Source of the DNA: an uncultured Bacteroidales bacterium
GTDB lineage: Bacteria > Bacteroidota > Bacteroidia > Bacteroidales > UBA932
Length of the DNA stretch: 49,912 nt
Assembly: GCA_900317845.1 (NCBI GenBank)
Contig: ONII01000017.1
Span: forward strand, 1-49,912
Reading direction: 5' to 3'
Shown: positions 888 through 32,130 of the stretch, one piece after another
How the letters are laid out: every line of letters begins with the position of its first letter
Position numbering within the stretch: position 1 is the stretch's first letter
The notes under the pieces: model-generated
What the model was told of the DNA's origin: nothing
The model's input: the letters and a program-made list of their open reading frames with translations, nothing else
Database searches by the model: none
Position numbers and translations under genes: made by a program

Positions 888-994
888 ACTCGCACCTACC
901 TCCTTCCCCCATTTGGGACCACACAGGCTTTTGCCGTGTAGACGGCCAGGACACCGTGACAGCTAAAATACTGACCAACAGCAACTTACAACAC

Positions 995-1023
995 AATCCT
1001 CGTTCAAAATCTGAACGAGGATT
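995..1023. repeat. Perfect 12-base inverted repeat (hairpin)
   Basis: AATCCTCGTTCA (995-1006) is followed by a 5-base loop and TGAACGAGGATT (1012-1023). There is no T run on either side, so it is not a standard terminator. It sits between the two 96-base repeats. A smaller TGCTGA/TCAGCA hairpin follows at about 1034-1048. Confidence 0.7.
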
Positions 1024-1066
1024 ATTAGCATCTTGCTGAGAATCAGCAGCTTAGCGACCAGCGGAG

Positions 1067-4690: not shown

Positions 4691-6445
4691 TTACCGAATT
4701 TCGTTGGCGTTGTAAATGTAGGTATAGTCCGGATTCCGGCTAAAAAGCCAGCGGTCTGCGGCTACGGTGGTATATGTATCCCAGCCCACAATGTTCTCCG
4801 GGCGGGCCGAGGCCTGCACCGGCATGACAAAATGCCCCTCCTCCCGGAAGACGCTGAAGGGGCGGGAGGCATAGCTGCCGTCGGAGCGGATACCACCGCT
4901 GAGCTCGATATAGGGCAGCGCACGTCCCGGGGCGTAAACCACATCCTCCACGGACTCTACACCCACGCCTCCGGCGGTGATGTAGAACGTATCGCCGGCC
5001 GTAACCCCTGCCTGATAGGTGAGCGTGGGGGTATCCCCTATCCAGCGTACCTTGAACACGCTGTTATTCTCTTCTACGCCCAGCCCGCAGGCCATCTTCA
5101 CCTTCCCTTCATAGATGGGATAGCACACCCAAAGGTCGTGCCCGTCAATTTGCTCGTGGCAGACGGTGGCGACATAGCGGCCACCGCTTTCAATGTTCAC
5201 CACCTGCGGAGTGTCATCGGCATCGACCCGTGTAAAGGTTTCCCAAGTGGCCGTGTCCTTTCTCCACTGGCAGGAGGCCGAAGGATAACGGATGGGGAAA
5301 GCAGCGTTAAAGAAGTTGGCGTCCCCCAGCAGCTTTTGCATGAGGGCGGCATCCTGGGTGATGGCGGCCTTGATGCGCATGGCCTGCCACTTGTCCACCA
5401 CAGCGGCAAACTCCCAGATGGGAACTACCGCCATATCAATAAGTTCCACGTTGGAATTGAGCTCGTCCGCCGGATTATAGACCAGCGACCTTCTCCAGGC
5501 CGATATCCCATCCAGCGAAAACGTGCGCGTGCCGTCCGGCTTGTGCTCCCCCAGGAGGCCGGTCAGGTGGCTCTGGTCCCCTCCCCAGGCCTGGAGCTTG
5601 AGGCGGCAGTCTTTCATCCATACAAACTCTTCCTCCACACGGGACTTCTGCTTGTTTTCCACTGCCTTCAAGAATTCCTGGGTGCTCCATGCCTCTTCGC
5701 TGGCGCGGTCATTGTAACGCCACATGCTGTTCATCAGGTCCACCCGGAGACGCCCGCCCAGACTGGCGCTTACAATGACATGAGTACCCCACACTTTAAT
5801 CATGGAGTCCACCGCAGCCACATTGTCGTCGGGGGTAAGCCGCAGGTGCTCCACGGCATTGCGGAAACTCTGGGTGAACACGTTCCGGTTCCGGGAATAG
5901 CGGGCCAGGACGCTGGCGTAGTTAATGTAGCTGTCCACCATAAGTTCTTTTTCCTCCAGGGTGTAGTAAAAGGATTCCTGAATGCCATTTTCCAGGAAAT
6001 ACTGCCGATTGCGTTTCTCGTTCTTGTACAGGCCTAAATCAATCTTCTGTTTGGTTTCTACGGCCACGTTGGCTACATAGTCCCGGAAGGAATAGCTGAA
6101 CTCCGAGGCCACGGAGGATTCCCTGGCAGTGTTCTCCGCCATGAGTATCTCGCCGCTGGCCGCCTGCATATTCTCCAGGAAATAGCGGTTGAGGACCTGG
6201 CAGCGGATGTCTTTCCAGTTGCAGTAGTCCCCGCGTACGGCATTGTACGAGTACCCCAGCCCGTAGTTTCGGCGGAACAGCTCGCGGGTTTCCACATCTT
6301 CGGCCTTTACCCAGTTGTAGCCCCCTTCCGGCATCCATTCGGGGGCCTGGTTCTCTGCGGAAGAGGGGGGCATCTCCAGGCCCCGGCAGCTCCATACAAG
6401 AGCGGCCAGGCCCAGGAGGCAGGTCATATGAAGGAACCTTTTCAC
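4691..6445 (-). CDS. MACPF-domain lipoprotein (pore-former family)
   Basis: 584 residues from a GTG start, with a lipoprotein signal ending VWSC (Cys 20). A segment YGLGYSYNAVRGDYC (about 61-75) matches the start of Bacteroidales MACPF domains, and WGTHVIVSASLGG (219-231) is the MACPF signature ([YWF]-G-T-H-x6-G-G). The domain closes with a VELIDMAVVPIWEF-type strand. The C-terminal about 200 residues include WVCYPIYEGKVKMACGLG, a trailing module also seen in the 821-residue relative upstream. Known relatives include Bacteroidales secreted antimicrobial proteins (BSAPs), which kill related strains; others have no known target. It is the last gene of the array, three bases after the preceding stop, with the AraC gene 52 bases further on. 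The killing role is inference; the domain call is solid. Confidence 0.85.
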   Translation of the reverse strand: MKRFLHMTCLLGLAALVWSCRGLEMPPSSAENQAPEWMPEGGYNWVKAEDVETRELFRRNYGLGYSYNAVRGDYCNWKDIRCQVLNRYFLENMQAASGEILMAENTARESSVASEFSYSFRDYVANVAVETKQKIDLGLYKNEKRNRQYFLENGIQESFYYTLEEKELMVDSYINYASVLARYSRNRNVFTQSFRNAVEHLRLTPDDNVAAVDSMIKVWGTHVIVSASLGGRLRVDLMNSMWRYNDRASEEAWSTQEFLKAVENKQKSRVEEEFVWMKDCRLKLQAWGGDQSHLTGLLGEHKPDGTRTFSLDGISAWRRSLVYNPADELNSNVELIDMAVVPIWEFAAVVDKWQAMRIKAAITQDAALMQKLLGDANFFNAAFPIRYPSASCQWRKDTATWETFTRVDADDTPQVVNIESGGRYVATVCHEQIDGHDLWVCYPIYEGKVKMACGLGVEENNSVFKVRWIGDTPTLTYQAGVTAGDTFYITAGGVGVESVEDVVYAPGRALPYIELSGGIRSDGSYASRPFSVFREEGHFVMPVQASARPENIVGWDTYTTVAADRWLFSRNPDYTYIYNANEIR

Positions 6446-6448
6446 GCA

Positions 6449-7633
6449 CTAAATATTGACAAGGGTAAAGCCCTGAGGCACTTTATCCGTAAAATGCACG
6501 CTGTTCATGGTATAAACAAAGCATTCGTTCAGGAAATCGTAGAGATTGCCCTTCCCACCGTTTCCGTAGTAGCCTTTATCGTCATAGGAATACCCGTTGT
6601 TATTGATGCACTGCGGAGCAATGCGGACATACTGGCAATAGCGCTTTTTGCCTTTGAGGAATTTGTACGACCCGTGCTCGGCCCCCAGTACCATGATTAC
6701 CTTTTTGTATCGGTCCAACGAATAGTCGCTCCAGTGGCTATAGTCGTCTTTATTTGTTGCGAACCCATCCTTGCCCAAAGTGGGAAAATCTTGATTTTCG
6801 GCGTCCCTGGAATAGCAGGCAAAAGGGAACACCTCACCGGGGAACCGATCCACAATCTTCTGCTTCTTGCGGGCGTAGATTTTGCTGTCTGCGCACAGCA
6901 GAAGGTAGTCGCTGATGTCATTGATGCGGCAGCTTTTGTCATGGCCGCTACCATGCTTGGGATCCCACAGTTCGCTCCATCTGTTGTTGAATAACCGGCC
7001 TTTTCCGGCACCCATGTTAACCAGCGTTCCCGGACTGCTGGTACTCCGGCTTTCCTTTACGCACACCCAGTACACGCCCTCGCCAAAGTACACGTCTCCC
7101 CGGCGACAGGGGGAAGAAAAGCTGTTGGTACCCCACTGGTCTGACGTACGGTAGATGATTTTGGTAAGATGGGGGACGCAGGGAATCTCCACGCTGACAT
7201 AGCCGGAGTTGTTCCCATCCCCTTGGCGGTGGAAAGTGAGTTTTCCCAGTTTGAGGTGCGTAAGGTCTATCACCAGCCCATCCGCTGTCTCCGAGACAAA
7301 GCGGTTGTCTCCTACCAGTGAACGGAAATACGATTCACTCAGAGAAGCTTCTTCTACGAATACGCTTCTCTCGGAGGGTGCATTCGCATCCAGGACTTCG
7401 CCAATGGTGGGCTCGAAGGTTTTCCCTTCGAACACAAAGTCAGTCTCCTCATCGTTGTCAAAGACCACGTCGGTCAGCGCTTCCAGCACATTCTGGATGG
7501 CTAAAGCTTCGCGTTCCTTCTGCTCTTCGGCCGCTTCCGTCTCTTCCGCATTGTCCTTCCGGCAGCCCGCGACTACGGACAGCGCCAGAGCGGCCATCAG
7601 GCAAAACAGGATGCATTTCTTACTAGTCCACAT
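6449..7633 (-). CDS. Lipoprotein of the array-specific 'FEPxIG / PHLxKIIYR' family, short form
   Basis: 394 residues, lipoprotein signal ending VAGC (Cys 24), then a Glu-rich linker. Shared family landmarks are GKTFEPTIG, a SYFRSLVGD segment, LGKLTFHR, VEIPCVPHLTKIIYRTSDQ and GVYWVCVKE. The second half is diverged and rich in Tyr, Asp and Lys (KGKKRYCQYVRIAPQC, YGNGGKGNLYDFLNECF). I do not recognise a named domain. It lies between two MACPF genes, overlapping the upstream one by 11 bases and ending three bases before the next start, so it is translated with them and may act with them at the surface. It is the most divergent of the five members in the window. Confidence 0.65.
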   Translation of the reverse strand: MWTSKKCILFCLMAALALSVVAGCRKDNAEETEAAEEQKEREALAIQNVLEALTDVVFDNDEETDFVFEGKTFEPTIGEVLDANAPSERSVFVEEASLSESYFRSLVGDNRFVSETADGLVIDLTHLKLGKLTFHRQGDGNNSGYVSVEIPCVPHLTKIIYRTSDQWGTNSFSSPCRRGDVYFGEGVYWVCVKESRSTSSPGTLVNMGAGKGRLFNNRWSELWDPKHGSGHDKSCRINDISDYLLLCADSKIYARKKQKIVDRFPGEVFPFACYSRDAENQDFPTLGKDGFATNKDDYSHWSDYSLDRYKKVIMVLGAEHGSYKFLKGKKRYCQYVRIAPQCINNNGYSYDDKGYYGNGGKGNLYDFLNECFVYTMNSVHFTDKVPQGFTLVNI

Positions 7634-10088
7634 AACGTTTAATTACCTCCAACTTAGGATATTCGAACTTGTAGTTTCGCACAGGACGTACGGGATAATA
7701 GTCCTCGTGCCAGTCGCCCAATACGTCGTAACGAATGAGACGATAGTTGTTGTCCAGCACCAGCAGCTGGGGGTCGTCGCCGCCGTTATCCATCACGGAG
7801 AACAGGTGGAGCTGCCCTTTGTAGCGGAGCGCCAGGCGATTGTCCGGGAAGGTGGCACGTCCGTTCAGCACGTCGCTGATGCCCCAATAGCCATTGAAGC
7901 GGGCGTCGAAGCCGGAAAGCTGCCCCGGGAACAGGGCCTTGGGATTGAAGCCCAGGAAGGCTTCCAGGCCCCTCACCTCGTCCGATGTAGGCATGTACCA
8001 GCGCCGCTCATTGCCCCAGGTCCAGTCATTGTCTTCCATGATGATGTCGTTAATCTGGAAGTCGAAGCGGGTGTAAAGGACGCCCTCCTCCACCTGCTCG
8101 TCAAAGTACAGGTAGCCGGAATGCGGGTCTTCGCAGAAGCCCATGGGGTGGTCAATATCGGCCCGCGTCCAGAAATTGCTCCCCACTTTCACAATGGGGT
8201 GGCTGTAGGCCTTGCGCGGGTCCAGGAAGTAGAACGCATCGTCCCGCACCTCCCGGCCTTTCTGGCCGTAAGAAGGAAGGTCCACCGGACTTTCCGGCAT
8301 CAGGCTGCCGTTCACATACCAGAAACGGGTGAGCACGGAGTCCGGAGCCATGTCCGGGAAGGGATTCACGTAACAGTCTCCTCCGCTAAAGGCCACAAAG
8401 GCAGGCCGATGGGTGCCGTCGCCCGGGAAAAGGCCCTGATTCAGGCGGATGCCTTGCTGGTAGATGGGATAGGCAATGGTGACGCGCTTGTCGGAGCGGA
8501 TGGCGGGCACATACTCGGAGCACACCTCCAGTATGGGCATTCCTGCCATGTACAAGATGCGGCATAGGCTGCCCTTCCCTTCCTCGGGGAAAGTAAAGAG
8601 TGCCTTGTCTGCGCCCTGCGGGTCTATCGGGTAGATATCCATTCCGGTGAAGCTGTCCTCAAGGACATTGTCCGAGCGCTGACCCAGGTCAAACGTAACG
8701 CGCATAAAGTCCTCACGGACATCTTCCGTCACCAGGTCCCACAAGGGAATGAGCTCGAAATGAATCACGTCCAGCGAAGGGTCTCCCTGGAAATGCGGGC
8801 TGTAATTAATGGAGGCCAGCCAGTCCGTAATACGGGCCGGGTCGATTTGTCCGTTGGCGGACAGTTCGCTTATCTCCTTCTCCAGCGCCTGCACCTGGGC
8901 CGCACCGCCGCCGCGCACCTCAATGGCGCTTATGGCCTCCCCCTGCGAGGTAACCACAGGCGACTTGGGTGTGGACGGTTCGCGGTTCATGCCCGTACGG
9001 TCCCCGTCGGCAATCTGCCCCAGCGTGAAGTTCACCTCCTGCTCTATCTCTTCCCGGGAGTTGAAGCTGGCCGACTTACGCATGGTGAAAGAATAGTCTA
9101 TCCGGCCGCCCAGGTCCACCTGCAGAATCACATGCGTGCCAAACTGCGTAAGCACGGACTCGATGAGCTGCCGGCGGGTTTCACCGCTGGCCCGACGGCA
9201 ATAGAAAAGGTACGTGGAGAACTCCTCCGAATAGGGCACTCTCCCCTCCCGCTTCAGGTCCAGGAGGGCAGCCCGGTCAATGATGCGCGACGCAACGGCC
9301 TTTTCCAGGGAGCCATGGCCATAATTTTGCTGGTCCAGTCCCTCGCTGGAGGATTTCAGCAATTTCACAAGCGTGTTGCAGTTGTCCAGGCAGCCTTCAA
9401 AGATATTGTCTTTGTCTTCCGTCTGCAGCTGGCTCAGGCCCTGTCCATAGGCATGGATATTCCCGGCGTTCACGTGGTTTACATCCAGACGGCTCAGGTG
9501 GCAGTCCTGGACGAGCTGGTATTTTTCGGCCAGGTTGAGTTGCCGGGCCATGTAGGGATAGTCCAGCACGGGCATACGCACGCGCACGGCCATGGGGCTT
9601 TCCAGGGCCTTGTAGATGTCGTACCCATACCCCACATACAACTGCTCCCGGGCGGCGTCGGCATTTTGGTCCAAATCGCTGGAGGAAAGCTGCACCAGGC
9701 GCAGCTGCGCCGTACGCGTGGGATTGGCGGCATCCGTAAAAGTAAGGATGGCTTCCCGCCGCTGCTCACTCAGGTTGGCCTGGGTCTTGAGGGACACCAT
9801 GCCATCCGCAGCCAAGGTTCCGGTCGATACTACCAGCCAGCGGACATTACTCCGCACATAGATTTCTCCCGTGGAGGCATCCCGGCCGCTCAGGGCCACC
9901 TTCAACGACTCATAGCTGGCCCGGAAAGGCAGGAGCGGGACGCCGTTTTCCTGAGCGGGAGAGCCGTCCAGGAAAACCACGTCCAGCTTCTTTTCCTCCT
10001 GCGCAGCAGGGGGCTCCTTCCGGCAGCACAGGCACAGGCCTGCCACCAGAAGAAGTCCTGCAAGGGCGATATGCCGGGGAGCCCGCAT
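7623..10088 (-). CDS. BACON-MACPF-FISUMP lipoprotein
   Basis: 821 residues. Signal peptide with adjacent Cys 21/22 as lipidation candidates. A BACON-like beta domain (about 60-135; VRWLVVSTGTLAADGMVSLK) precedes a MACPF domain that opens with VGYGYDIYKALESP (about 152-165), carries the signature FGTHVILQVDLGG (316-328) and ends near FELIPLWDLV. A MACPF-associated C-terminal part follows (ITIAYPIYQQGIRLNQGLFP). The last about 185 residues look like a FISUMP domain (VGSNFWTRADID...RRWYMPTSDEVRGLEAFLG...GYWGISDV). MACPF proteins oligomerise into membrane pores; BACON and FISUMP modules are usually glycan-binding or surface modules and could set the target. It begins six bases after the preceding stop. 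Confidence 0.82.
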   Translation of the reverse strand: MRAPRHIALAGLLLVAGLCLCCRKEPPAAQEEKKLDVVFLDGSPAQENGVPLLPFRASYESLKVALSGRDASTGEIYVRSNVRWLVVSTGTLAADGMVSLKTQANLSEQRREAILTFTDAANPTRTAQLRLVQLSSSDLDQNADAAREQLYVGYGYDIYKALESPMAVRVRMPVLDYPYMARQLNLAEKYQLVQDCHLSRLDVNHVNAGNIHAYGQGLSQLQTEDKDNIFEGCLDNCNTLVKLLKSSSEGLDQQNYGHGSLEKAVASRIIDRAALLDLKREGRVPYSEEFSTYLFYCRRASGETRRQLIESVLTQFGTHVILQVDLGGRIDYSFTMRKSASFNSREEIEQEVNFTLGQIADGDRTGMNREPSTPKSPVVTSQGEAISAIEVRGGGAAQVQALEKEISELSANGQIDPARITDWLASINYSPHFQGDPSLDVIHFELIPLWDLVTEDVREDFMRVTFDLGQRSDNVLEDSFTGMDIYPIDPQGADKALFTFPEEGKGSLCRILYMAGMPILEVCSEYVPAIRSDKRVTIAYPIYQQGIRLNQGLFPGDGTHRPAFVAFSGGDCYVNPFPDMAPDSVLTRFWYVNGSLMPESPVDLPSYGQKGREVRDDAFYFLDPRKAYSHPIVKVGSNFWTRADIDHPMGFCEDPHSGYLYFDEQVEEGVLYTRFDFQINDIIMEDNDWTWGNERRWYMPTSDEVRGLEAFLGFNPKALFPGQLSGFDARFNGYWGISDVLNGRATFPDNRLALRYKGQLHLFSVMDNGGDDPQLLVLDNNYRLIRYDVLGDWHEDYYPVRPVRNYKFEYPKLEVIKRYVD

Positions 10089-10094
10089 GGCGGA

Positions 10095-11834: not shown

Positions 11835-11855
11835 ATCTATTCTGTTTTAGTTAAT

Positions 11856-14342
11856 TTATCGGGTAATCCATACACTCATCCAAGACGGATACGAACTTGG
11901 CTGTCCATCCACATGAATGTTGGCTCTATCTAGCCAAATAGTTGCCTTGAAGTCATAAAGACTGCTCACAGTTTGCGCTATCACCTCCTTCCGTCTATAC
12001 GCACTGGCGGTCTCGGGCACAGCGTAGTCCAAGGGGAATTCCTTCACCAGCGTGAGTGTATGACCATTCACCGTTTTAGTGGCATACTCATCCCCACGGT
12101 CATAAACGGCATCGGCACGGAACATCAATACGGGCTCGTTCCACATATCCGTGGGGAACCTGTAGTCCTGCCATGCATTGAAATTGTAGAAATATTTTTC
12201 AGGGTACTCCGCGCTCGGGTCCGGCTGGGTGCGGTAGGGCCTGTCGGCTTCCGATCCCTGCGCGGGATGGAACCCTCTGGTAGCATACAGGTCTTTACCG
12301 TACTTCGCCACCTTATCTGCATCGGCTACGTCCTGAAGGAAGATCGTCTCCCCACTAAAGGAGGAATAGGACTCGGCCGTCGCACTGGGACTGCTTGGAT
12401 AATGCTTCCAGAAAAAACGCGGCGGGCTTAAATTACTGATGTCATTCACATACAGGAAACGTCCTACAGGCTGACCGACAGCATTGCCGGCCGGATCGCT
12501 ATAGGCAAAACCGGTCATGCTCGTGTAGTTACGATCGACCAGGCCGTAGGGACGAACAAACTGGAAAAAGCGAGAGGTATTGACCAATGCATTTTCTGTC
12601 AGGAAACGGACGATAGCGGACGAGAGACCCAGATTCTGCATTTCTCCGTCGGCCTGGAATATTTGAGGGACATCATTCACAAGAAGATTGTGCATGGCAA
12701 GAATGGCTCGCAGCGCCTGTCCATACGTAGGCAGGTCTTCCACATAGCGGGCACTCAGCAGGCGGTGCAATCCACGGAAGGAGACCAGTTCCGAGTATGG
12801 CGAGGATTCACACCAATCGCTACTATTATTATTTGTACCCGACATGTTCACGACAAACCAGAGTTCTTTATTTTCATCCGCGTAAATATCACCTGTCTTG
12901 TAGTGGGCGCTCCCCGTGAAACTGGACGGGTTCTGATGCGTGTAGTCGTTAACAATTTTGGTATCAGTAATTTCCGGCTCATGGTCCGCCATGTTTTCCA
13001 CAGGCACCACATCCCGGTAATAGCGGTACACATCCCAGACGCCGGGAATGGCGTGGTGCACATCGGTATACTTTCCGGTATCGGAAAGCTCGGCGCCGGT
13101 GGCATAACGGACGATGTAGCGGGGACTGGAGTCTCCAAAGAAAGCCGGGTTCACCACATACTTCTTATTGCGCACGTCAAACTCCACGTCCTTTTGCGGG
13201 TCATCATTGACCATTAGCGCCTTGGGTTCCGTGTAAGGACTTTTTGTCTGCATGTTGGCGTTAACGCCACCCGGCGTATTCACAAACCGGGCCTGATACA
13301 CCTTGGCATAGTTGGTCCACGACGTCACCCAGGAATACCCCTTGTACAGGAAATGAAGGCCGGCACCCTCTATCTCACGGGAAATCTCATCCAGACTACG
13401 TCCCATGATTAGCCTGTCAATATCATTTTCACGCCAGGCATCAGCCACATTGTTCCAGAATTTGGCATTATGGTACGTGGCGTTGTTCGGGCTGAAATCG
13501 TGGAAGATGGGAAGGCCGGAAGGGCCAAAAACGCCCACTTTGCTATAATTGAAAACGTTATCCGCCCACTTGTCCGGGAAACAGATGGCAAACAGCATCT
13601 CTGCCAGGTTTTGCATGTGTTCCTTGCTATACTTGAGCTCCGTGGGGAAACAATACTCTTTTCCGTGACTGCTCGTGTAGAGCCACCAGTTATAAGGCGG
13701 CAAATAATCCATGCTCATCCAGTGCGTCTCCCCCTTCCCCTCCGGGTTAAAGGCCGGACGCACGCACACCCAATATTCCGGTATCTGACCATCCTCACCC
13801 GTAAGAGCGATTACATCGCCAAAACGATAGTAGGCGCTGCCGGCAAAGGAGGCGTTGGTGTCCCCTTGCTCCGCACTGCGGTAGATGAGTTTGGAAAGGT
13901 GCGGGACGGAAGGGATATCTACCTTTACCTCTGCCCACGCAGTGCCACTCATTTTGGTATAAGTGAGCGTACCTACTTCCGGATTACTCCAGGTATAACC
14001 GGGCGTATTCTCGTCAATGGAGTCCACGCCAACCAGGTTGGCAAAACTCCGGGCAGCGGCTGCAGCGGAGTTGGTGGGCACAATGCGCGCCTGCGGGTCC
14101 GACGCATCCGCAACACCTATCACCGGCTCAAAAGTTTTTCCCTTGTAGTCCGGAGTGATGTCCGAGCCCGCGACCAGCTGCCCCACCACATCCCAGAACT
14201 GGTCCGTTTTTTCGGTCTTTTCCTGCTCCTGCTGCGCCTTCTGCTCCTCCGGGCCCGGTCCCTTCTCGCAAGAGGACAGGGCGGCGGCAGCCACAAGAAT
14301 GGCTGCAGCAGCGGGCAATAGGTTCAATAGAAATCTGTTCAT
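11856..14342 (-). CDS. Array-specific long lipoprotein, paralogue A
   Basis: 828 residues, lipoprotein signal ending LSSC (Cys 25), followed by an EEQKAQQEQEKTEKTDQFWD linker. Family landmarks in order: GKTFEPVIGVADASDPQAR, FANLVGVDSIDENTPGYTWS, VPHLSKLIYRSAEQGDTNAS, YYRFGDV, EYWVCVRPAFNPEGK, LAEMLFAICFPDKW, LPIFHDFSPNNATYHN, LHFLYKGYSW, SPRYIVRYATGAEL. After PEITDTKIVND a second half begins with YKTGDIYADENKELWFVV, echoing the first half's YYRFGDV...YWVCV and suggesting internal duplication. The protein ends with WNEPVLMFRADAVYDRG and a short basic tail. No known domain is recognised. Its first 100 residues are almost the same as paralogue B, pointing to recent duplication or gene conversion. 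Confidence 0.65.
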   Translation of the reverse strand: MNRFLLNLLPAAAAILVAAAALSSCEKGPGPEEQKAQQEQEKTEKTDQFWDVVGQLVAGSDITPDYKGKTFEPVIGVADASDPQARIVPTNSAAAAARSFANLVGVDSIDENTPGYTWSNPEVGTLTYTKMSGTAWAEVKVDIPSVPHLSKLIYRSAEQGDTNASFAGSAYYRFGDVIALTGEDGQIPEYWVCVRPAFNPEGKGETHWMSMDYLPPYNWWLYTSSHGKEYCFPTELKYSKEHMQNLAEMLFAICFPDKWADNVFNYSKVGVFGPSGLPIFHDFSPNNATYHNAKFWNNVADAWRENDIDRLIMGRSLDEISREIEGAGLHFLYKGYSWVTSWTNYAKVYQARFVNTPGGVNANMQTKSPYTEPKALMVNDDPQKDVEFDVRNKKYVVNPAFFGDSSPRYIVRYATGAELSDTGKYTDVHHAIPGVWDVYRYYRDVVPVENMADHEPEITDTKIVNDYTHQNPSSFTGSAHYKTGDIYADENKELWFVVNMSGTNNNSSDWCESSPYSELVSFRGLHRLLSARYVEDLPTYGQALRAILAMHNLLVNDVPQIFQADGEMQNLGLSSAIVRFLTENALVNTSRFFQFVRPYGLVDRNYTSMTGFAYSDPAGNAVGQPVGRFLYVNDISNLSPPRFFWKHYPSSPSATAESYSSFSGETIFLQDVADADKVAKYGKDLYATRGFHPAQGSEADRPYRTQPDPSAEYPEKYFYNFNAWQDYRFPTDMWNEPVLMFRADAVYDRGDEYATKTVNGHTLTLVKEFPLDYAVPETASAYRRKEVIAQTVSSLYDFKATIWLDRANIHVDGQPSSYPSWMSVWITR

Positions 14343-14355
14343 CCTGATTTTTTGT

Positions 14356-16833
14356 CTAACGTCGTCCCCAGACTCTCATCCAATCCGGATACTGATACTT
14401 TTCCCCATCCTCGGTAATGACGTCCCGAGAGAATACTTGTAGGGCATAAAATGCTTGCAGGACTGTCTTTTCTTCCTTTATTCGCGCCGCCTCATCGGCG
14501 GGATCGGGCAGCCCATAGCCCAAGGGGAATTCTTTCACCGGGGTGAGTTTGTGCCCATTCACCGTGATGGTGGAGTACTCTTCACCACGGTCATAGACGG
14601 CATCTGCGCGGAACATCAGGACGGGCTCGTTCCACATATCGCCGGGATACGCATATTTCTCCCACTGGTCGAAACGGTACAGATAGGATTCAGGAAACTG
14701 CGCTAAAGACTCCGGCTGGGTACGGAAGGGTCTTTTTGCCGTCGTCCTTCCATCAGTGGCCTGATCGGGATGGAATCCCATGGTAGCGTATAAGTCGGGA
14801 CCGTATTTCTTCACTTTTTCCCCATCCGCCACATCCTGAAGGAACATGGTCTCGTTACTAAAATCGTTGTATAATGTGGCCGTCACATTGGGATTGCGGG
14901 GATAATGCTTCCAGAGGAAGTGCGGCAGGTCTGCGTTACTGATTTCGGTCGGGAACAAGTACCTGCCCACAGGCTGACCGGTAGTGTTGACTGACGGGTC
15001 ACTATAGGCAAACCCCGCCATGTGCGTGAAGTTTTTATCACCCCCTGAGAGGGGTTGCACCACCTGGAACAAACGCAGAATATTGACGCGGGCATTCTCT
15101 GAGATAAAACGTATCACAGCGGTTGAAGGATGGAGATCCTCCCAATCATAGTTCCATTCGTTTATATATGCAAAGCCGTTAACAAAGATAGAATGGAGGG
15201 CGATGACGGCTCGTACGGCCTGTTCATAGGTGGGCAGGCCGGCAAGATAATGGGAACCCTCCATGCGCGACAGTCCACTGAAGGAGACCAGTTCCGAGTA
15301 AGGTGAGGGCTCACACAGCCCTTCCACGTTATTGGAACCTGCCATGCTTACCACAAACCACAGATCGTCCTTTTCATCTTTGTAGATATTCCCGGTCTTG
15401 TAGTAGGCAACACCGTTAAAATTGGACAGCGTCTGCTTGTTACGATCGTCCACAATTTTAGTCAACGTAATCTCCGGCGCATGTTCTTCCAGATCTTCCA
15501 CCGGCACCACATCCCTGTAATAGCGGTAAACATCTTTCGTCCCGGGAATGGCATTGTGCACATCGGAATACTTACCGGTATTGGAAAGCTCGGCGCCGGT
15601 GGCATAACGCAGAATGTAACGGGGACTGGTGTCTCCAAAGAACGGCATATTCTCCACATACCTTTTATTGCGCACGTCAAACTCCACATCCTTTTGCGGC
15701 TGATTCTTGTAAATCATCTGCACTTTTTGGTCTGTGTAAGGTTTTTTTGTCTGCATGTTGGCGTTTACGCCGTCAGGACTATTCACAAATTTGGCCTGGT
15801 ACACTGTGGCATAATTGGATGTTGATGTCCACCAGGAGTAGCCTTTGTACAGGAAGTGAAGGCCATTATTTGCTATCTCTTCGGAAATGGCATCCAGAGT
15901 ACGTCCCATGATTAGCTGGTCAATGCCCTTTTCACGCCAGGCAACGGCTACATTGTTCCAGAAACTGGCATTGTGGTACTTGACATTGCTCCGGTGAAAA
16001 TCGTGGAAGATGGGAAGGCCGGAGGGACCAAACAAGCCTTCTTCGCTATAATACAGAATGTTCTGTTCCCACTGTGTAGGATAGCACATGGCATAGAGCA
16101 TTTCCGCCAGATTCTGCATGTGCTCCTTGCTGAACTTGAGCTCTGTAGGGAAATAATACTCTTTTTTATTACTGCCAGTGTAGTGCCACAAGTTCTCGCT
16201 GGGCAAACATCCAACGCTCATCCAGTGCGTCTCCCCCTTCCCCTCCGGGTCGAAGGCCGGACGCACGCACACCCAGTATTCTGTTTTATCGTCTGAGTTT
16301 GTACGACTGATGACATCGCCAAAACGGTAGTAGGCACTGCCTGCAAAGGAGGCGTTGGTATCTCCCTGCTGTGCGCTGCGGTAGATGATTTTTGAAAGGT
16401 GAGGAACGGACGGTATCTTCACCTCTACCTCTGCCCATGCGGCATCGCTCACTTTGGTATAGGTGAGCGTGCCTATCTCCGGGTTACTCCAGGTGTAGGT
16501 TGGGGTGTTCTCGTCAATGGTGTCCACGCCAACCAGATTGGCAAAACTCCTGGCTGCGGCTGCAGCGGAGTTGGTGGGCACAATGCGCGCCTGCGGGTCC
16601 GACGCATCCGCAATGCCAATCACCGGCTCAAAGGTCTTTCCCTTATAATCCGTAGTGAAGTCAGAGGCCGCTACCAGTTGCCCAACCACGTCCCAGAACT
16701 GGTCCGCTTTTTCGGTCTTTTCCTGCTCCTGCTGCGCCTGCTGCTCTTCCGGACCGGGCCCCTTCTGGCAAGCGCCCATGACCACGGCCACGGTTGCCAG
16801 CAAAACAATGTGTAATACTATCTTTCTCATCAT
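14356..16833 (-). CDS. Array-specific long lipoprotein, paralogue B
   Basis: 825 residues, lipoprotein signal ending MGAC (Cys 22; a second Met directly follows the first, so the start may be 3 bases later). Same organisation as its neighbours: QEQEK linker, GKTFEPVIGIADASDPQAR, PHLSKIIYRSAQQGDTNAS, YYRFGDV, LAEMLYAMCYPTQW, GPSGLPIFHDF, LHFLYKGYSWWTSTSNYATV, and a second half starting YYKTGNIYKDEKDDLWFVV. The DNA is mosaic. The N-terminal coding part is close to paralogue A, while the central part (15700-16080) is nearly identical to paralogue C (18165-18545), including about 170 bases around the YSWWTSTSNYATVYQAKF codons. Function unknown. The 13-base gaps on both sides mean co-transcription. 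Confidence 0.65.
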   Translation of the reverse strand: MMRKIVLHIVLLATVAVVMGACQKGPGPEEQQAQQEQEKTEKADQFWDVVGQLVAASDFTTDYKGKTFEPVIGIADASDPQARIVPTNSAAAAARSFANLVGVDTIDENTPTYTWSNPEIGTLTYTKVSDAAWAEVEVKIPSVPHLSKIIYRSAQQGDTNASFAGSAYYRFGDVISRTNSDDKTEYWVCVRPAFDPEGKGETHWMSVGCLPSENLWHYTGSNKKEYYFPTELKFSKEHMQNLAEMLYAMCYPTQWEQNILYYSEEGLFGPSGLPIFHDFHRSNVKYHNASFWNNVAVAWREKGIDQLIMGRTLDAISEEIANNGLHFLYKGYSWWTSTSNYATVYQAKFVNSPDGVNANMQTKKPYTDQKVQMIYKNQPQKDVEFDVRNKRYVENMPFFGDTSPRYILRYATGAELSNTGKYSDVHNAIPGTKDVYRYYRDVVPVEDLEEHAPEITLTKIVDDRNKQTLSNFNGVAYYKTGNIYKDEKDDLWFVVSMAGSNNVEGLCEPSPYSELVSFSGLSRMEGSHYLAGLPTYEQAVRAVIALHSIFVNGFAYINEWNYDWEDLHPSTAVIRFISENARVNILRLFQVVQPLSGGDKNFTHMAGFAYSDPSVNTTGQPVGRYLFPTEISNADLPHFLWKHYPRNPNVTATLYNDFSNETMFLQDVADGEKVKKYGPDLYATMGFHPDQATDGRTTAKRPFRTQPESLAQFPESYLYRFDQWEKYAYPGDMWNEPVLMFRADAVYDRGEEYSTITVNGHKLTPVKEFPLGYGLPDPADEAARIKEEKTVLQAFYALQVFSRDVITEDGEKYQYPDWMRVWGRR

Positions 16834-16846
16834 TCTATGTCAGTTA

Positions 16847-19312
16847 TTAATTCCAGTTTACATTCCAGGCCTCCCGCCAAGTCGGAACTCTATAGGTTTT
16901 GCCATCCAGTTTCATGTGACCATCGCGCCATTCCTTGTCGTTGGCATTTTTAAACGAATAAACTTCTATTAAATCGCCTTTTAGCGCATCCGCGTTCAAA
17001 GGACTGGCAAAACATTTTAATTCTGCCACAAGGGTTAGCCTGTGACCGTCGAATGTGGTGGTGGCATACTCTGTCCCACGGTCGTATACCGCATCTACGC
17101 GGTACATCAGGATGGGCTCGTTCCACATATCCAAATGGTTTTTCCAATCGGCCGAACCATAAAGAAAGGCCCCGACGTTGTTGACGGCCGCATCATCCGT
17201 CTGGGTGCGGATATTTCTATCCGTATCCGTATTCTCGAGCGGCTGCGTGGCATAAAAATCCGTCGCATAGTAACCAACCAATTGCGAATTGGCAAGATCC
17301 TGAAGCGTAATGAGGTCGGAGGAAAAGACATCGTAAGACTTTGCCGTCAGGTCCGGAGAGACAGGGTAATGTTGCCAGAAGAAGTAAGGTGTATGTGCGT
17401 TATCCAGACTGATGGGATACAGGAAACGGAAGAGAGGCTGCTTTCCTTTGTAATATTGCTCAGGCTCAGGCTCGTAATAGGCGACACTGAACGCCTGGGT
17501 CAAATTGCGAGCATCGCCCCATCCCTTGGTTGCCTGAACCATATCCAGAAGATTCCAGCCTGTATGGTCCTTCACGTGTTTTACCACCTTCTCGGCAATC
17601 TTCCTGTCATCTTCATCTATTTGCGCAAAAGCATTTCGGCCGTTTCCATAATAGTTGCGAATATAAGTAGCGGCACGGATGGCCTGGTCAAAAGTAGACA
17701 GTCCGTACACTTGTTTCCCATCAGGACTTAATCCATCAAAGGATACCAGTTCCGCTATCGGGGCGGCTTCACAATCGTAATCCATATTAAGTCCATTTCC
17801 CTGGCCCGCCACATTCATGACAACCCAAAGCTTTTCTTTCTCATCTTTTAAAATGCTTCCTATGGAATAATGGCCAATACCCCCGAAGTTCCTGAGATCC
17901 TGGCTCTGACGGTCGTTGACAATCATCCCCTCCGTAATTTCCGGCTGGTGTTCTTTTACATTGGCAATCGGAAGCAAGTCGCTATAGTAACGATACACCT
18001 CCTCGGTACCGGGAATGGGCTGGTCCACTGCCGGCGTTTTCCCGTCTCTGGCAAGGTCTGAAGCAATGGCGTAACGCACAATGTAACGGGGGCTGCTGTC
18101 TCCAAAGAAGTCTTGATAGATGACGGATTTCTTGTTTCTCACATCAAACTCCTGGATGTCCTTGGCCGGCTGATTCTTGTAAATCATCTGCACTTTTTGG
18201 TCTGTGTAAGGAGTTTTTGTCTGCATGTTGGCGTTTACGCCGCCAGGATTATTCACAAATTTGGCCTGGTACACAGTGGCATAATTGGATGTTGATGTCC
18301 ACCAGGAGTAGCCTTTGTACAGGAAATGGATACCGGCGCCGTTAATCTGCTGGGCAATATTGTCCAGGGAAGTACCTAACACCAGGTTATCGATGCCCTT
18401 TTCTTTCCATACCACCGCCACATTGTTCCAGAAACTGGCATTGTTATACTTGACATTGCTCTGGTGAAAATCGTGGAAGATGGGAAGGCCGGAGGGACCG
18501 AACAAGCCTTCTTCGCTATAATACAGAATGTTCTGTTCCCACTGCTTGGGATAGCACATGGCATAAAGCATTTCCGCAAAATTCTGCATGTGCTCTTTGC
18601 TGTTCTTAAGCCCGGTAGGGAAAGCATACTCCTTCTTGTTGCTTCCGGTGTATGTCCATATGTTCTTCTGGGGAAGCGAGCCCACGCACATCCAGTGGGA
18701 ATCCTCCTTACCCTCGGGACCAAATGCGGGGCGTACGCATACCCAGTATTCCTCGATGCCGCCGTCGTTGGTACGCTTGACCACATCACCAAAACGATAA
18801 TAGGCGGCATGCGAGAAAGAGCCGTTCTCTCCGCTCTGTTCCACAGAACGGTAGATAATCTTGGAAAGGTGCGGGATGGTAGGAATCTTCACCGTTACCT
18901 CCGCCCAAGACGAGGTGCCATCCGTCTTGGTATAGGTAAGCGTACCCACCTCCGAGTTACTCCAGGTGTAGGTTGGGGTGTCCTCATCAATGGTGTCCAC
19001 GCCAACCAGATTGGCAAAGCTTTGGGCGGCCGCAGCGGCGGAGTTGCTCTTCACGATACGGGCCTGGGCGTCGGATGCGTCCGCAATGCCAATCACCGGC
19101 TCAAAGGTTTTGCCTTCGTAGTCCTGACCGATATCCGAGGCCGCTACCAGCTGCCCCACCACGTCCCAGAACTGCTCTGTCTTCTGGGCTTGCTCCTGTT
19201 CCTTCTTCGCCTGCTCCTCAGGGCTCAATGTCTCCTTTTTGCAGGAGAGCGCAAACAGTCCCGTGGCGCATACCAGCGCTGCCAGGAACAAATACTTACA
19301 TACGGTTTTCAT
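16847..19312 (-). CDS. Array-specific long lipoprotein, paralogue C
   Basis: 821 residues from the ATG at 19312. This start gives a proper lipoprotein signal (MKTVCKYLFL... ending ALSC, Cys 24) and lies downstream of the promoter -7 box at 19335-19342, so the earlier in-frame TTG cannot be used from that promoter. Same two-part architecture as paralogues A and B: EEQAKKEQEQAQKTEQFWD linker, GKTFEPVIGIADASDAQAR, PHLSKIIYRSVEQSGENGS, YYRFGDV, LYAMCYPKQWEQNILYYSEE, WWTSTSNYATVYQAKF. The C-terminal half is the most diverged of the three (ends YRVPTWREAWNVNWN). It is the first gene behind the internal promoter, so it and everything down to 4691 may form a separately controlled transcript. No domain recognised. 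Confidence 0.65.
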   Translation of the reverse strand: MKTVCKYLFLAALVCATGLFALSCKKETLSPEEQAKKEQEQAQKTEQFWDVVGQLVAASDIGQDYEGKTFEPVIGIADASDAQARIVKSNSAAAAAQSFANLVGVDTIDEDTPTYTWSNSEVGTLTYTKTDGTSSWAEVTVKIPTIPHLSKIIYRSVEQSGENGSFSHAAYYRFGDVVKRTNDGGIEEYWVCVRPAFGPEGKEDSHWMCVGSLPQKNIWTYTGSNKKEYAFPTGLKNSKEHMQNFAEMLYAMCYPKQWEQNILYYSEEGLFGPSGLPIFHDFHQSNVKYNNASFWNNVAVVWKEKGIDNLVLGTSLDNIAQQINGAGIHFLYKGYSWWTSTSNYATVYQAKFVNNPGGVNANMQTKTPYTDQKVQMIYKNQPAKDIQEFDVRNKKSVIYQDFFGDSSPRYIVRYAIASDLARDGKTPAVDQPIPGTEEVYRYYSDLLPIANVKEHQPEITEGMIVNDRQSQDLRNFGGIGHYSIGSILKDEKEKLWVVMNVAGQGNGLNMDYDCEAAPIAELVSFDGLSPDGKQVYGLSTFDQAIRAATYIRNYYGNGRNAFAQIDEDDRKIAEKVVKHVKDHTGWNLLDMVQATKGWGDARNLTQAFSVAYYEPEPEQYYKGKQPLFRFLYPISLDNAHTPYFFWQHYPVSPDLTAKSYDVFSSDLITLQDLANSQLVGYYATDFYATQPLENTDTDRNIRTQTDDAAVNNVGAFLYGSADWKNHLDMWNEPILMYRVDAVYDRGTEYATTTFDGHRLTLVAELKCFASPLNADALKGDLIEVYSFKNANDKEWRDGHMKLDGKTYRVPTWREAWNVNWN

Positions 19313-19334
19313 ATAGCGTTGTATTAAAATTGAC

Positions 19335-19366
19335 AAAAATAAGGTAAATAAACCCCCATATCCAAT
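19335..19366 (-). promoter_or_regulatory. Internal promoter of the lipoprotein array
   Basis: On the minus strand TTG (19366-19364), 21 bases, then TATTTTTG (19342-19335), an exact TAnnTTTG -7 box. The predicted start is about 15 bases before the ATG at 19312. It lies in the only sizeable gap (129 bases) inside the array. Confidence 0.65.
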
Positions 19367-19382
19367 ACCCCCGGGGTAAAAA

Positions 19383-19422
19383 TTGACGCAGAGTTACAAA
19401 AATGCCCCAATTTTTTACTCAA
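19383..19422 (-). promoter_or_regulatory. Operator candidate shared with the 3465-3503 site
   Basis: Plus-strand TTGACGCAGA (19383-19392) and AATTTTTTAC (19409-19418) repeat the elements at 3465-3474 and 3490-3499, with 16 versus 15 bases between. The second half-site here is degenerate (TACTCAA against TACGCAG). A further shared stretch, TGTCTTTTTTGACGGAATT (19425-19443), resembles TGTCTTTTTGGCGTAATT at the first site. Both sites sit about 25-27 bases upstream of the -33 region. A common activator is the simplest explanation. Confidence 0.45.
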
Positions 19423-19441
19423 AGTGTCTTTTTTGACGGAA

Positions 19442-20791
19442 TTACTCGTCGGGCGTGGTAATTTCGGGCTCTGCATCCAAGTTTACGGGGCCATAGAAAG
19501 CGTTGTACCTGTACACCTCCGTAAAGCCGCTAATGGCGTACTTGACATGGAAGCGGTGGTCGGAGGCAAGATCGGCCCCGGAGGAGTGGCGAATCACCCA
19601 GCGGTATGCGCCGTCGTTGTTGAAAAAGCGCATGTAATTGCCCGTATTGCCGCTCATGGAACGGCAATCCAGCACCATGTTACTGACCTCCTGCTCCCGG
19701 GTAGGATACTCGGCAAGGTGCATATTGTGCTCCTTGTCACCGGTTCCTTCTTTATACACGGCTTCAAACAAGGTACAGTTATAGGTAGAAGCATACCACC
19801 GGTTCCCCCGGAACAGCAGGTGAAGGCCGTCGGCATCCAGGCGGCGAAGGAAGTCTGCTTCATCTACCCCGAAGACTGTCCGGAAAATGCCCCTCTCTGT
19901 CCAGGCCCTGTGCACCCTTTCCCAGAAATAGCGGTTGTGGTAGTCAAGATTGGTTTTTTTGAAATCCGTAAAGAACGGCATACCTACATTATACCACGCC
20001 TGCGAATCATCATGATATGTATTGACGTTTTCTTCCCACTGGTCAGGATGTGCAATAGCGTATAACATTTCCGCCAGGTTCTGCATGTTCTCGTTATCCC
20101 GGCTGATGCCGCTGTTGGGGACGTACCATTCCCGGCCCGAACCAGAAAGATTGGTAACAAACTTGTCCGGAACCGTGTTGACGCATATCCAGCGCGAGAT
20201 TTGCTTATTCTCGGGGCCGAAAGCCGGTCGTACGCACACCCAGTACTCCGTTTTTCCTTCCGGCAGGGTGCGGGAGATGACATCGCCAAAGCGATAATAG
20301 GCGGCGCCACGGAACGCAGGGGCGTTATAGCCCATTTGCTTGGCTGTCCTATATATAATATTGGTCAAATGGGGCATTTGCTTGATACTCACTTTTACCG
20401 ATGCCAGGGAGCTTCCGTCTTTGCTTTGGGTATAAGTGAGGGTGCCCACCGCCGGGTGCGAAAAGGTATAAGTGGCGGTTTGGGGATCAAAATTCTCCAG
20501 GCCCACAAGATTGGCGAAACGCAAGGCTGCAGAGGCCTGGTCATTGGTTTCCACTTCACGGTCGTAGGAACCCTCCACGGCCGTACCTAAAGTGGGCTCA
20601 AAGGTTTTGTCCAGGTAATCCGGCGTGTAGTTGTCCGGATTGGTGAGCTGCCCCACAATGCCCCAGAAAACTTGTTCGTCATCGGTTTCCTGCCCGGATA
20701 CAGGAGTGGGATCGGGGGTCTTTTTGCAGGAGACGGCAAGCAGGGTCGCCGTCATCACCAGGATGCTGATTGCAAGATTGTGTATTTTCAT
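19442..20791 (-). CDS. Array-specific lipoprotein, single-module paralogue D
   Basis: 449 residues, lipoprotein signal ending AVSC (Cys 22). It contains only the first half of the long paralogues: FWGIVGQLTNPDNY, KTFEPTLGTAVEGS, FANLVGLENFDPQTATYTFS, PHLTNIIYRTAKQMGYN, YYRFGDVISRTLPEGKTEYW, LAEMLYAIAHPDQW, FFTDFKKTNLDYHNRYFWERV, LHLLFRGNRWYASTYN, YRWVIRHSSGADL, EVYRYNAFYGPV. It stops at AEPEITTPDE, exactly where the long forms continue into their second half after PEIT. It may represent the ancestral unit or a truncated copy. It starts 14 bases after the preceding peptidase gene. Function unknown. Confidence 0.65.
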   Translation of the reverse strand: MKIHNLAISILVMTATLLAVSCKKTPDPTPVSGQETDDEQVFWGIVGQLTNPDNYTPDYLDKTFEPTLGTAVEGSYDREVETNDQASAALRFANLVGLENFDPQTATYTFSHPAVGTLTYTQSKDGSSLASVKVSIKQMPHLTNIIYRTAKQMGYNAPAFRGAAYYRFGDVISRTLPEGKTEYWVCVRPAFGPENKQISRWICVNTVPDKFVTNLSGSGREWYVPNSGISRDNENMQNLAEMLYAIAHPDQWEENVNTYHDDSQAWYNVGMPFFTDFKKTNLDYHNRYFWERVHRAWTERGIFRTVFGVDEADFLRRLDADGLHLLFRGNRWYASTYNCTLFEAVYKEGTGDKEHNMHLAEYPTREQEVSNMVLDCRSMSGNTGNYMRFFNNDGAYRWVIRHSSGADLASDHRFHVKYAISGFTEVYRYNAFYGPVNLDAEPEITTPDE

Positions 20792-20805
20792 ATCGCTCTA
20801 GTTTT

Positions 20806-23043: not shown

Positions 23044-23046
23044 ACA

Positions 23047-26270: not shown

Positions 26271-27315
26271 GGCTGGCCTCCTGTTCTAAAGCAATGGGTC
26301 TATACCGGGCTTCCCATTCCATGTACTGCTCCTGCGTGAACATGTAGGGGAGCTCCTCCATCCAAAGTAGAAGCTGCTTAGGGCTCAGTTCAAAATAACG
26401 TGCATTGTACTGGATGTACACATGGCCCGTTGACAGGCCAAAATCCTGATGGGCCGGCCAGGGTTCCCCTTCCAGCCACTGGCCAATGTAGTCTTTGACA
26501 ATGCTTCCCAGGTCATACACCAGCGAGAAGGGCAGGATGTCGGAAAAGGGACTGCAGTCTTCTCCGACGCCGATGGAGAAATAATAGCAGTTGTTCGAGA
26601 ACATGTAGGCGCCCGTCCGGGATGCGCCGCACACCGGCACCAGCATATCGGCACGTTCCGGCCCCATCTCACCTTCCGCATGAGTGTACAGATAAGTGAA
26701 AAGCTCGTCCGGCATATTGACTCCCTTGTAGCTGTCCGAGAGGACCAGTTTCCCGGCTTCCACGTTGGCGGTGTCTTCAAAGCCTGCCTGGATGCCGTCC
26801 GCTACGGTATCCATCATGCGGTCTCCGTCCAGGGCCTTGATGATATACACATTAGGAAAGCCCCCACACAGGGCCCCCGCAAGGTAAGCGCCGCCATAGC
26901 GCTTGAGTTGTAAGGTGGCAACGCCGTTTTCCAGGGTTTGACGGCTGTCCAGCAGCAGGACACGGCCCTTGCCCGGAGAAAGGGATGGGGCCAGGGCCTC
27001 ATACTGGACGCCACAAAGCAGCAGCATGCTGCGCTCCCCTGCACTTTCCTGCCACTGCTGGGCCATGCCGCGGGCCTGGTCCAGGGTTTCCGGCCGAAGC
27101 AGGGAATGGTTTACCTGAGGATGCTCCGCCATGCTCTCCACCACAGCCTTGAGGATGGCATCATCGTAGCCGGCGCCGCTAAAGCTGACACCGGGCGAAA
27201 ACAGCACGGTAAGTTCCCGCTTGGGCTGCGCCTGTTCCCCGGAAGGGTTTTCCTTGCCGCAAGCACAGAGGACAAGGGCCACAAAAAGCCCGGATATGAT
27301 GGTTGACTTACCCAT
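26260..27315 (-). CDS. BMP/PnrA-like substrate-binding lipoprotein (unit 1)
   Basis: 351 residues, signal with LCAC (Cys 17/19). The start LTVLFSPGVSFSGAGYDDAILKAVVES matches the BMP/PnrA first strand-loop-helix. Later YGGAYLAGALCGGFPNVYII and MMDTVADGIQAGFED resemble the family's Y-x-A-G and D-A-x-x-A-G-F elements. Such proteins bind nucleosides or related small molecules. It overlaps the preceding AraC-type regulator by eight bases and the following peptidase fusion by eleven, so the three are translated together. With its partner at 24096-26270 it forms a two-gene unit repeated at 20806-24099. Confidence 0.65.
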   Translation of the reverse strand: MGKSTIISGLFVALVLCACGKENPSGEQAQPKRELTVLFSPGVSFSGAGYDDAILKAVVESMAEHPQVNHSLLRPETLDQARGMAQQWQESAGERSMLLLCGVQYEALAPSLSPGKGRVLLLDSRQTLENGVATLQLKRYGGAYLAGALCGGFPNVYIIKALDGDRMMDTVADGIQAGFEDTANVEAGKLVLSDSYKGVNMPDELFTYLYTHAEGEMGPERADMLVPVCGASRTGAYMFSNNCYYFSIGVGEDCSPFSDILPFSLVYDLGSIVKDYIGQWLEGEPWPAHQDFGLSTGHVYIQYNARYFELSPKQLLLWMEELPYMFTQEQYMEWEARYRPIALEQEASHAY

Positions 27316-27787
27316 GCTGCTCCCTGTACTGCGACGGCGTAAGGCCGTACTTGTTTTTGAAATCTACGGTGAAAGTGGTGGCATGCAGGAAGCCGGAGGC
27401 ATCGGCAATCTCTGCAAAAGTAAGGTCCGGACGCGCTGCAATGAGGTTTTTGGCATATTCCAGGCGACAGTCCCGGATGAACTCCGGAACGGAGGTGCCG
27501 GCCTCGGAGAACAGGGCGCCAATCTGCCGGTTGGTAAGCCCGAAGCGCTGCACCAGCTCCTTCCGGCCCAGCCCGGGGGTGAGGAAGAGTTTTTCCTCAC
27601 GGATGATGCGCGTAATCCGGTCAAAAGGTTCTTCCGTCCTCGTGGACTCCACGTTTGCCGCAGCAGGGGAAGCAAGTAAGGCCGGTTCCTGCTGCGACCC
27701 GTACCTGCGCCTGTCAAAGGCCCTGACGACAAAGAATGTCACCACGGCTGTAAGTGCACAGGGCAGTATGGTTGTCAGAAGCAGCAA
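27308..27787 (-). CDS. Short membrane-anchored AraC-family regulator heading the array
   Basis: About 159 residues: one N-terminal membrane segment (about 4-22), a short linker, then an AraC-type helix-turn-helix domain (about 55-157; TEEPFDRITRIIREEKLFL, LVQRFGLTNRQIGALFSEAG, FAEIADASGFLHATTF). It resembles the C-terminal part of the TPR regulator at 27940-29640 without its TPR region. The start is uncertain. A TTG at 27787 is the best in-frame option; the ATG at 27808 is followed within two codons by a stop and overlaps the -7 box, and the ATG at 27792 is out of frame by one base. The gene overlaps the first lipoprotein gene by eight bases, so it is part of the array operon. Confidence 0.7.
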   Translation of the reverse strand: MLLLTTILPCALTAVVTFFVVRAFDRRRYGSQQEPALLASPAAANVESTRTEEPFDRITRIIREEKLFLTPGLGRKELVQRFGLTNRQIGALFSEAGTSVPEFIRDCRLEYAKNLIAARPDLTFAEIADASGFLHATTFTVDFKNKYGLTPSQYREQHG

Positions 27788-32116: not shown

Positions 32117-32130
32117 TACCTTACTTATAT

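Follow-up and report, generated by a model that had tools for sequence, protein, structure and literature searches.

Genes for MACPF proteins are common in Bacteroidetes, and several of those tried singly gave no antimicrobial activity (PMC4999547). The BSAP toxins are Bacteroidales lipoproteins with a MACPF domain, some of which carry an N-terminal BACON domain, and their C-terminal domains are variable (PMC12853789). Surface proteases of the C11 family activate CDCL pores (PMC11169675), and activation by a C11 protease has a further precedent in Fab1 (PMC8406203). We analyzed a window of 49,912 nucleotides, one whole contig (ONII01000017.1; G000:C37 in our labels, where G, C and L denote genomes, contigs and loci) of a 2.4 Mb genome in 39 contigs from an uncultured Bacteroidales bacterium (GCA_900317845.1), in which an array of twelve genes includes three MACPF lipoprotein genes, two BMP-like genes, two fusions of a type I binding-protein domain to a C13 peptidase and five members of a family that we call FAM. 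Throughout Bacteroidales a BMP-like lipoprotein is repeatedly found with a C13 fusion whose active site is intact, and often with a FAM lipoprotein as well. We give about an even chance to the reading that the array specifies a complement-like pore system of several subunits, anchored to the cell surface and equipped with a ligand-sensing protease of the legumain type. Its MACPF proteins P0001, P0003 and, through its clade, P0004 fit the lipoprotein MACPFs of Bacteroidales.

The twelve genes lie head to tail on the minus strand, from 27315 down to 4691, and a signal peptide with a lipobox cysteine was recognized by eye in every translation, which bears out the preliminary description of twelve consecutive minus-strand lipoprotein genes at this place. 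In array order, all on the minus strand, they are BMP1 (P0012, 26260..27315), C13PBP1 (P0011, 24096..26270), BMP2 (P0010, 23047..24099), C13PBP2 (P0009, 20806..23043), FAM1 (P0008, 449 residues, 19442..20791), FAM2 (P0007, 829 residues, 16847..19336), FAM3 (P0006, 825 residues, 14356..16833), FAM4 (P0005, 828 residues, 11856..14342), MACPF alpha (P0004, 10095..11834), MACPF beta (P0003, 7623..10088), a small FAM protein (P0002, 394 residues, 6449..7633) and MACPF gamma (P0001, 4691..6445), where BMP1 and BMP2 are the BMP-like lipoproteins and C13PBP1 and C13PBP2 the two fusions. The gaps between them measure, in the same order, −11, −4, 3, 14, 129, 13, 13, 21, 6, −11 and 3 bases. The largest becomes 105 bases with a TTG start for FAM2 at 19336 (the ATG start would be at 19312), and apart from this single gap of 105 or 129 bases the spacing is as tight as had been claimed (−11 to 21 bases).

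The gene make-up given in the preliminary description stood in most respects. Pfam recognized Peptidase_C13 (PF01650) in both fusions (E 1.5e-41 and 4.7e-44), ANF_receptor in P0009 (P0011 gave a match short of the cut-off), and MACPF in P0001 and P0003 with scores that pass the cut-off; P0004 alone fell below it (E 0.082) and was assigned through its clade. The label that Pfam did not return is that of BMP1 and BMP2, which have no Bmp match of their own, while relatives of these proteins at L066 and L071 match Bmp (PF02608; E 8e-9 and 8e-7) and two other relatives scanned do not. NCBIfam gave no match above cut-off for any of the ten proteins submitted, of the 16 translated.

Relatives of the C13 fusion are encoded on 325 stretches of a species-level genome collection, and our counts come from the best 80, less three (L086, L101 and L138) that offered no usable C13-fusion call, so that 77 loci remain. 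Genes in relatives were called with a simple codon-usage script, and their start positions are rough. A BMP gene stands directly upstream of the fusion on the same strand at 61 of the 77 loci, or at 56 of the 67 with at least 1.2 kb of upstream sequence, and the two genes often overlap, the commonest overlap being the 11 bases seen between BMP1 and C13PBP1 of the window. MACPF genes occur in the same-strand run at 29 of the 77 loci (15 of the 34 with at least 4 kb on both sides). With further loci and the window added, 87 fusion sequences formed 61 clusters at 85% identity: 33 MACPF-linked, 15 not linked and 13 undecidable because of contig ends, so that 33 of 48 decidable clusters are linked, the window's P0009 and P0011 being counted as two of them. 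On the fusion tree, which like the MACPF tree is a quick tree without bootstrap, the linkage label changes 5 times, compared with a mean of 13 in shuffles. The absence of a conserved neighborhood had been set beforehand as refuting the preliminary description; MACPF, BMP, C13-fusion and FAM genes recur together in many lineages. One operon of MACPF, BMP and C13 fusion (L149) stands in a record labeled Fibrobacterota, a metagenome-assembled genome (MAG) named Fibrobacter succinogenes RUG14497, through either transfer or a binning error.

Draws of 295 Bacteroidales genomes contained Pfam MACPF in 21 (18 over the cut-off) and a C13 fusion in 7, including one (G488) with only a 24-position match. 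Both were present in three of the 295 (the window's, G307 and G489), each time in one operon, and this co-occurrence has p = 0.009 by Fisher's test, which becomes 0.04 once the window's genome and the weak match are left out. Among 23 genomes chosen from loci, seven of the eight from MACPF-less loci lacked any MACPF match. In 15 genomes with both, all 38 Pfam MACPF matches (37 over the cut-off) lay less than 10 kb from a C13 fusion, the farthest at 7,255 bases. Five MACPF loci (G495, G509 twice, G510 and G511) had not been the basis of genome choice and are also linked; G503, with two MACPF matches, is outside the 15-genome count, and its locus L097 shows the linkage. Prevotella communis (L074, G495) was considered as a genome with unlinked MACPFs and was ruled out by a second C13 fusion 4.7 kb from them.

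The three MACPF proteins are distinct, conserved subunits, which the preliminary description had overlooked. A tree of 79 MACPF domains places them in three clades, each with a Shimodaira–Hasegawa-like approximate likelihood ratio (SH-aLRT) of 99: alpha (P0004, 16 rows), beta (P0003, 18 rows) and gamma (P0001, 19 rows). Exactly one alpha, one beta and one gamma occur together in 16 operons, including those of the window, G071 and Paraprevotella xylaniphila YIT 11841, a pattern that argues for joint action of their products. A second trio lineage comprises the operons L067, L103 and L106, and the remaining MACPF rows form one clade, mostly with one or two MACPFs per operon (L112 has three). We regard P0004 as a MACPF protein because members of its clade match Pfam MACPF (7 of 16 at E ≤ 0.01, with 17 of 17 for both beta and gamma) and because the alpha and gamma profiles match each other with 99.8% probability.

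The subunits also differ in build. Alpha proteins end no more than 45 residues past the MACPF domain and carry BACON in 12 of 16 cases; by pattern search the GTH signature is found in none of the 16, compared with 12 of 18 beta and 14 of 19 gamma proteins. P0004 itself consists of BACON and a MACPF domain with a degenerate signature, the long C-terminus being absent. Beta proteins have BACON in 13 of 17 cases and 330–372 residues after the MACPF domain, and P0003 combines MACPF with such a long C-terminus and a BACON match below the cut-off; gamma proteins extend 211–256 residues past the domain in 17 of 19 cases and about 835 in two. The C-termini of beta and gamma have a domain in common (97.3% profile probability), contained in beta within the stretch 7989..8699 on the minus strand and present in gamma and most other long-tailed C13-linked MACPFs. 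Of 22 further linked MACPFs compared, 15 have it, two of them as a weak match, and nine unlinked ones gave no match. At the level of whole genomes it was detected in 13 of 14 chosen from MACPF-linked loci and one of seven from MACPF-less loci, where the match lies beside a second, MACPF-linked C13 fusion. The second half of the domain model has weak matches in 60 further genomes of the 295, which we read as a probable Fib_succ_major-like region. As a mark exclusive to C13-linked MACPFs the domain was ruled out by matches in G364 and G258, and its use was narrowed by G505. In the first two a stronger match stands in an open frame of about 630 residues with no MACPF match near (G364:C1:344049-344669, L166; G258:C26:14090-14584, L167), and neither genome has a C13-fusion match.

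Among solved structures, the beta and gamma profiles reach MACPF proteins, the best matches of beta being an insecticidal protein (E 1e-8) and then complement C6 (E 7e-8). When FAM, BMP, P0003, P0001 and the C-terminal stretch common to beta and gamma were themselves compared with solved structures, nothing was returned at the E limits used.

Of 92 C13 fusions, a count that includes near-copies, 88 retain the catalytic His and Cys; of the other four, three are truncated or split pieces, and only L070 has truly lost the pair. The altered fusion at L070 adjoins a TonB-dependent receptor gene. P0011 matches legumain at E 2.3e-30, with GWDNYRHQADA aligned to GWYNYRHQADA, and the C13 call of the preliminary description is upheld by the conserved active site and the conserved, legumain-like NYRHQAD stretch. 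We take the Arg and His of NYRHQADA to line the legumain S1 pocket. A plasmid search with P0009 gave no match.

The FAM proteins had been introduced as a five-member unrecognized family, and indeed none of the five has a match above cut-off in Pfam, nor have the four of them submitted to NCBIfam; as a family they are looser than that wording implies, since all five share only an N-terminal domain of about 200 residues, with about 450 residues common to four. FAM3 has an AlphaFold2 model with a mean predicted local distance difference test score (pLDDT) of 84.7. In 200 genomes drawn from the window's genus, probably Cryptobacteroides, the FAM profile found matches in 9, six of them strong and including the window's own. 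Beyond the genus, a profile made from genus islands only finds 37 of 67 further members at E < 1e-3, among them the small lipoprotein that Paraprevotella and MAGs resembling Prevotella and Bacteroides carry in their MACPF operons. With three shuffled decoys for each protein, the best decoy E was 0.92, and no other real protein fell below 0.01. FAM in MACPF-less loci (for example, L056_5) first came from an iterated profile, which is liable to drift. The genus-only profile gives mostly E 0.002–3 in these loci, and one profile–profile match reaches 96.5% (E 9e-10, signal peptide included). We hold this relation with moderate confidence, because it depends on that one distant match, which includes the signal peptide. 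The genome G191 has FAM genes on two contigs (L064:10036-11268 and L065:943-1539), as an orphan partner or protector would be, and no MACPF or C13-fusion match.

In the close relative G005 the island has the gene content and gene order of the window, spread over three contigs and with at least seven FAM genes, and the orthologous island of G079 is split over contigs. G071 has a divergent island on a single contig, with one BMP/C13 pair, three MACPFs and 12 FAM genes, and a second C13 fusion on another contig. Only the island end is kept in G061, where about 34 kb is absent relative to the window, including the start of the beta gene, and no C13 fusion was found in the genome; the ends of the missing stretch (L060:6643-6654) correspond to window positions 9910 and 44076 and leave a remnant beta gene without its start.

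Identity between the window and G005 varies along the island: 97.7% for C13PBP2, 96.6% for gamma, 80.9% for FAM3, 77.9% for BMP1 and 74.4% for the small FAM protein. Within C13PBP1, the last four blocks, which lie in the protease part, are 92–100% identical and two blocks of the ligand part 63–64%, with a third ligand-part block at 30% that contains unknown letters. On the fusion tree, C13PBP2 groups with MACPF-linked fusions and C13PBP1 with fusions mostly labeled MACPF-less. By its sequences, then, the island is a composite of BMP1/C13PBP1 from a mostly MACPF-less branch and BMP2/C13PBP2 from a MACPF-linked one, a point that the preliminary description had also missed. A third fusion of the C13PBP1 kind, again with a BMP gene and likewise absent from that description, is found where contig C28 ends. 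Alignments to G061, from which the contig order is inferred, put this end some 230 bases away from the left edge of the window, so that three C13 fusions seem to occupy one hot spot; the end stretch of L056 also matches window 877-1055, a repeat that makes the inferred order less certain. L056 (L056:4440-12393 on G000:C28) is MACPF-less and encodes BMP, C13 fusion and then lipoproteins of about 781, 312 and 433 residues, a layout also seen in L073–L076 and L085. The protein of about 781 residues has no Pfam match and a predicted structure of no use (mean pLDDT 37.8); it may be another effector.

Our favored reading of a complement-like pore system with its own protease draws on the conserved partnership, the intact active site, the specialization of the subunits and the precedent of toxin-activating surface proteases. 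The BMP and C13-fusion proteins would pair as a receptor-protease that responds to a small ligand, and the protease would cut after Asn or Asp, as legumain does, to free or mature either the MACPF subunits or a partner from the FAM family. One mixed ring would then be built from alpha, beta and gamma, as different complement proteins form one pore, with the long C-termini of beta and gamma choosing the target and the FAM proteins acting as partners or protecting the producer. Expression would be governed by AraC-type regulators, and the probable target would be another gut or rumen cell, most likely a competing Bacteroidales strain. A wider version is possible, with the balance leaning against it: in a complement-like cascade, a two-protein receptor would sense a small molecule and the protease would license a three-subunit MACPF ring, while the core and FAM would be reused with other effectors as a general sense-and-cut platform on the Bacteroidales surface.

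Several observations weigh against the favored reading. In one branch of the fusion tree 10 of 11 decidable clusters are labeled MACPF-less, the eleventh being the window's C13PBP1 (one label, that of L098_6, is wrongly 'none', its island being split over contigs), so the protease does not necessarily act for pores. Of the 21 MACPF genomes among the 295 drawn, 18 are without a C13-fusion match, and the sets of 23 and 15 genomes were chosen for holding a C13 fusion. The shared C-terminal domain is lacking in 7 of the 22 other linked MACPFs and has no match in the whole genome of G505, which carries a MACPF-linked C13 fusion, and G364 and G258, which belong to one genus, carry it at a distance from any MACPF match. 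The L070 fusion (8376-10556) has both catalytic residues replaced. Finally, killing by BSAP-2 does not depend on the rest of its operon (PMC4999547), so MACPFs do not in general require a partner.

The MACPF-less branch is also the natural starting point for an alternative in which BMP and C13 fusion form a sensing or processing module of their own, one that might, for example, cut a FAM protein or a peptide and signal to AraC-type regulators, with MACPF as one of several cargoes controlled by expression and not by cutting. The BMP/C13-fusion loci of this branch carry other lipoproteins, FAM-like proteins extend to MACPF-less loci by one distant profile match, and AraC-type regulators recur beside the loci. 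We nevertheless consider this rather unlikely, given that the link to MACPF has persisted through deep branches of the tree and changed only rarely, and that linked MACPFs mostly have the common C-terminal domain.

Two further alternatives concern the target. Instead of rival bacteria, the pores could attack eukaryotic cells such as the protozoa or fungi that live in gut and rumen, or could be used on prey as a source of food: many record titles name rumen or other animal gut samples, a glycan-use locus identified by eye borders the island, the top hit of beta among solved structures bears the title of an insecticidal protein, and MACPFs in general also attack eukaryotic membranes. This seems decidedly unlikely, as the characterized Bacteroidales MACPF toxins kill related Bacteroidales (PMC4999547, PMC12853789). 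The protease could instead turn the pores on the producer, in a self-directed or anti-phage system, which we view as highly improbable because signal peptides put the parts outside the cytoplasm. Several defense systems do couple proteases to pores, and a PADLOC scan of ten proteins gave a weak caspase match for P0011 (E 0.0012); the other nine proteins had no match.

AraC-type helix-turn-helix (HTH) proteins flank the array, all encoded on the minus strand: P0014 (27940..29640; HTH_18, E 3e-14), a lipoprotein and probable regulator; P0013 (27308..27787; HTH_18, E 1e-18), a small protein whose gene overlaps BMP1 by 8 bases; and P0015 (3496..4638; HTH_18, E 1e-18), a probable regulator with a hydrophobic N-terminal part. 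P0013 had been described as leading the array, but in neither G005 nor G079 was it seen ahead of the island. Two other regulator types do recur next to loci of this kind: the P0015 type, with full-length relatives (50–56% identical) no more than two genes from BMP in L062, L073, L078 and L080, and the P0014 type, with relatives beside the BMP gene of BMP/C13-fusion loci in L140 and L151. The preliminary description had also placed a promoter in the largest gap; the −7-like TATTTTTG (19334..19341, minus strand), a candidate promoter element only, occurs 24 times in the window compared with 15.9 expected, and the full −33/−7 pattern was not found in that gap. The probable glycan-use locus adjoining the island spans window 29891-48947 (SusC/D-, GH3-, GH130- and GH92-like genes, by eye), and in G005 and G061 some of its parts connect with the island at different positions.

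If the favored reading is true, the array would be a bacterial pore machine of the complement type that a signal sets off, its trigger, protease and pore all encoded by a single operon, and it would occur in the culturable Paraprevotella xylaniphila YIT 11841, Parabacteroides distasonis An897 and Prevotella communis E15-14. A three-subunit set with an operon-encoded sensor-protease would offer a simple reason for the inactivity of MACPFs tried singly, in that some may need partners and a cut. The C13 fusion could serve as a marker for finding further such systems, and the receptor-protease core, should it prove general, would represent a new kind of system. Among the papers listed from the open literature, covered by titles and the starts of abstracts and with subscription journals mostly outside its scope, we found no description of a C13/binding-protein fusion with MACPF.

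Several described systems resemble the array in part. The B. thetaiotaomicron cluster BT_3433–BT_3442 likewise has a MACPF pair among clustered lipoprotein genes (PMC2954219), but its other described products are trefoil, porin, inner-membrane, immunoglobulin-like and tetratricopeptide repeat proteins; the description makes no mention of a C13 peptidase or a binding-protein fusion and leaves the homologous pair BT_3436/BT_3438 undescribed. BSAP-2 is the sole gene of its operon needed for killing (PMC4999547), whereas the array has three subunits together with C13 fusion, BMP and FAM. The vertebrate complement membrane attack complex is similar in having several different MACPF subunits, with no sign of kinship closer than the MACPF domain. 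The CDCL systems share more than one pore subunit, a surface cysteine protease as activator and a surface lipoprotein (the BcdI immunity protein) in the operon (PMC11169675). Their operons comprise CDCL genes, a lipoprotein and a porin, whereas the pore proteins of the array are MACPFs with up to three subunits; and CDCL activation depends on a C11 protease that must be present on the target cell (PMC11169675), whereas the activator of the array would be a C13 enzyme, fused to a binding domain and encoded in the operon itself. With legumain, the asparaginyl endopeptidase of family C13, the array enzymes share the catalytic His, Cys and NYRHQAD stretch but, unlike legumain, they sit behind a type I binding-protein domain and carry a lipoprotein signal.

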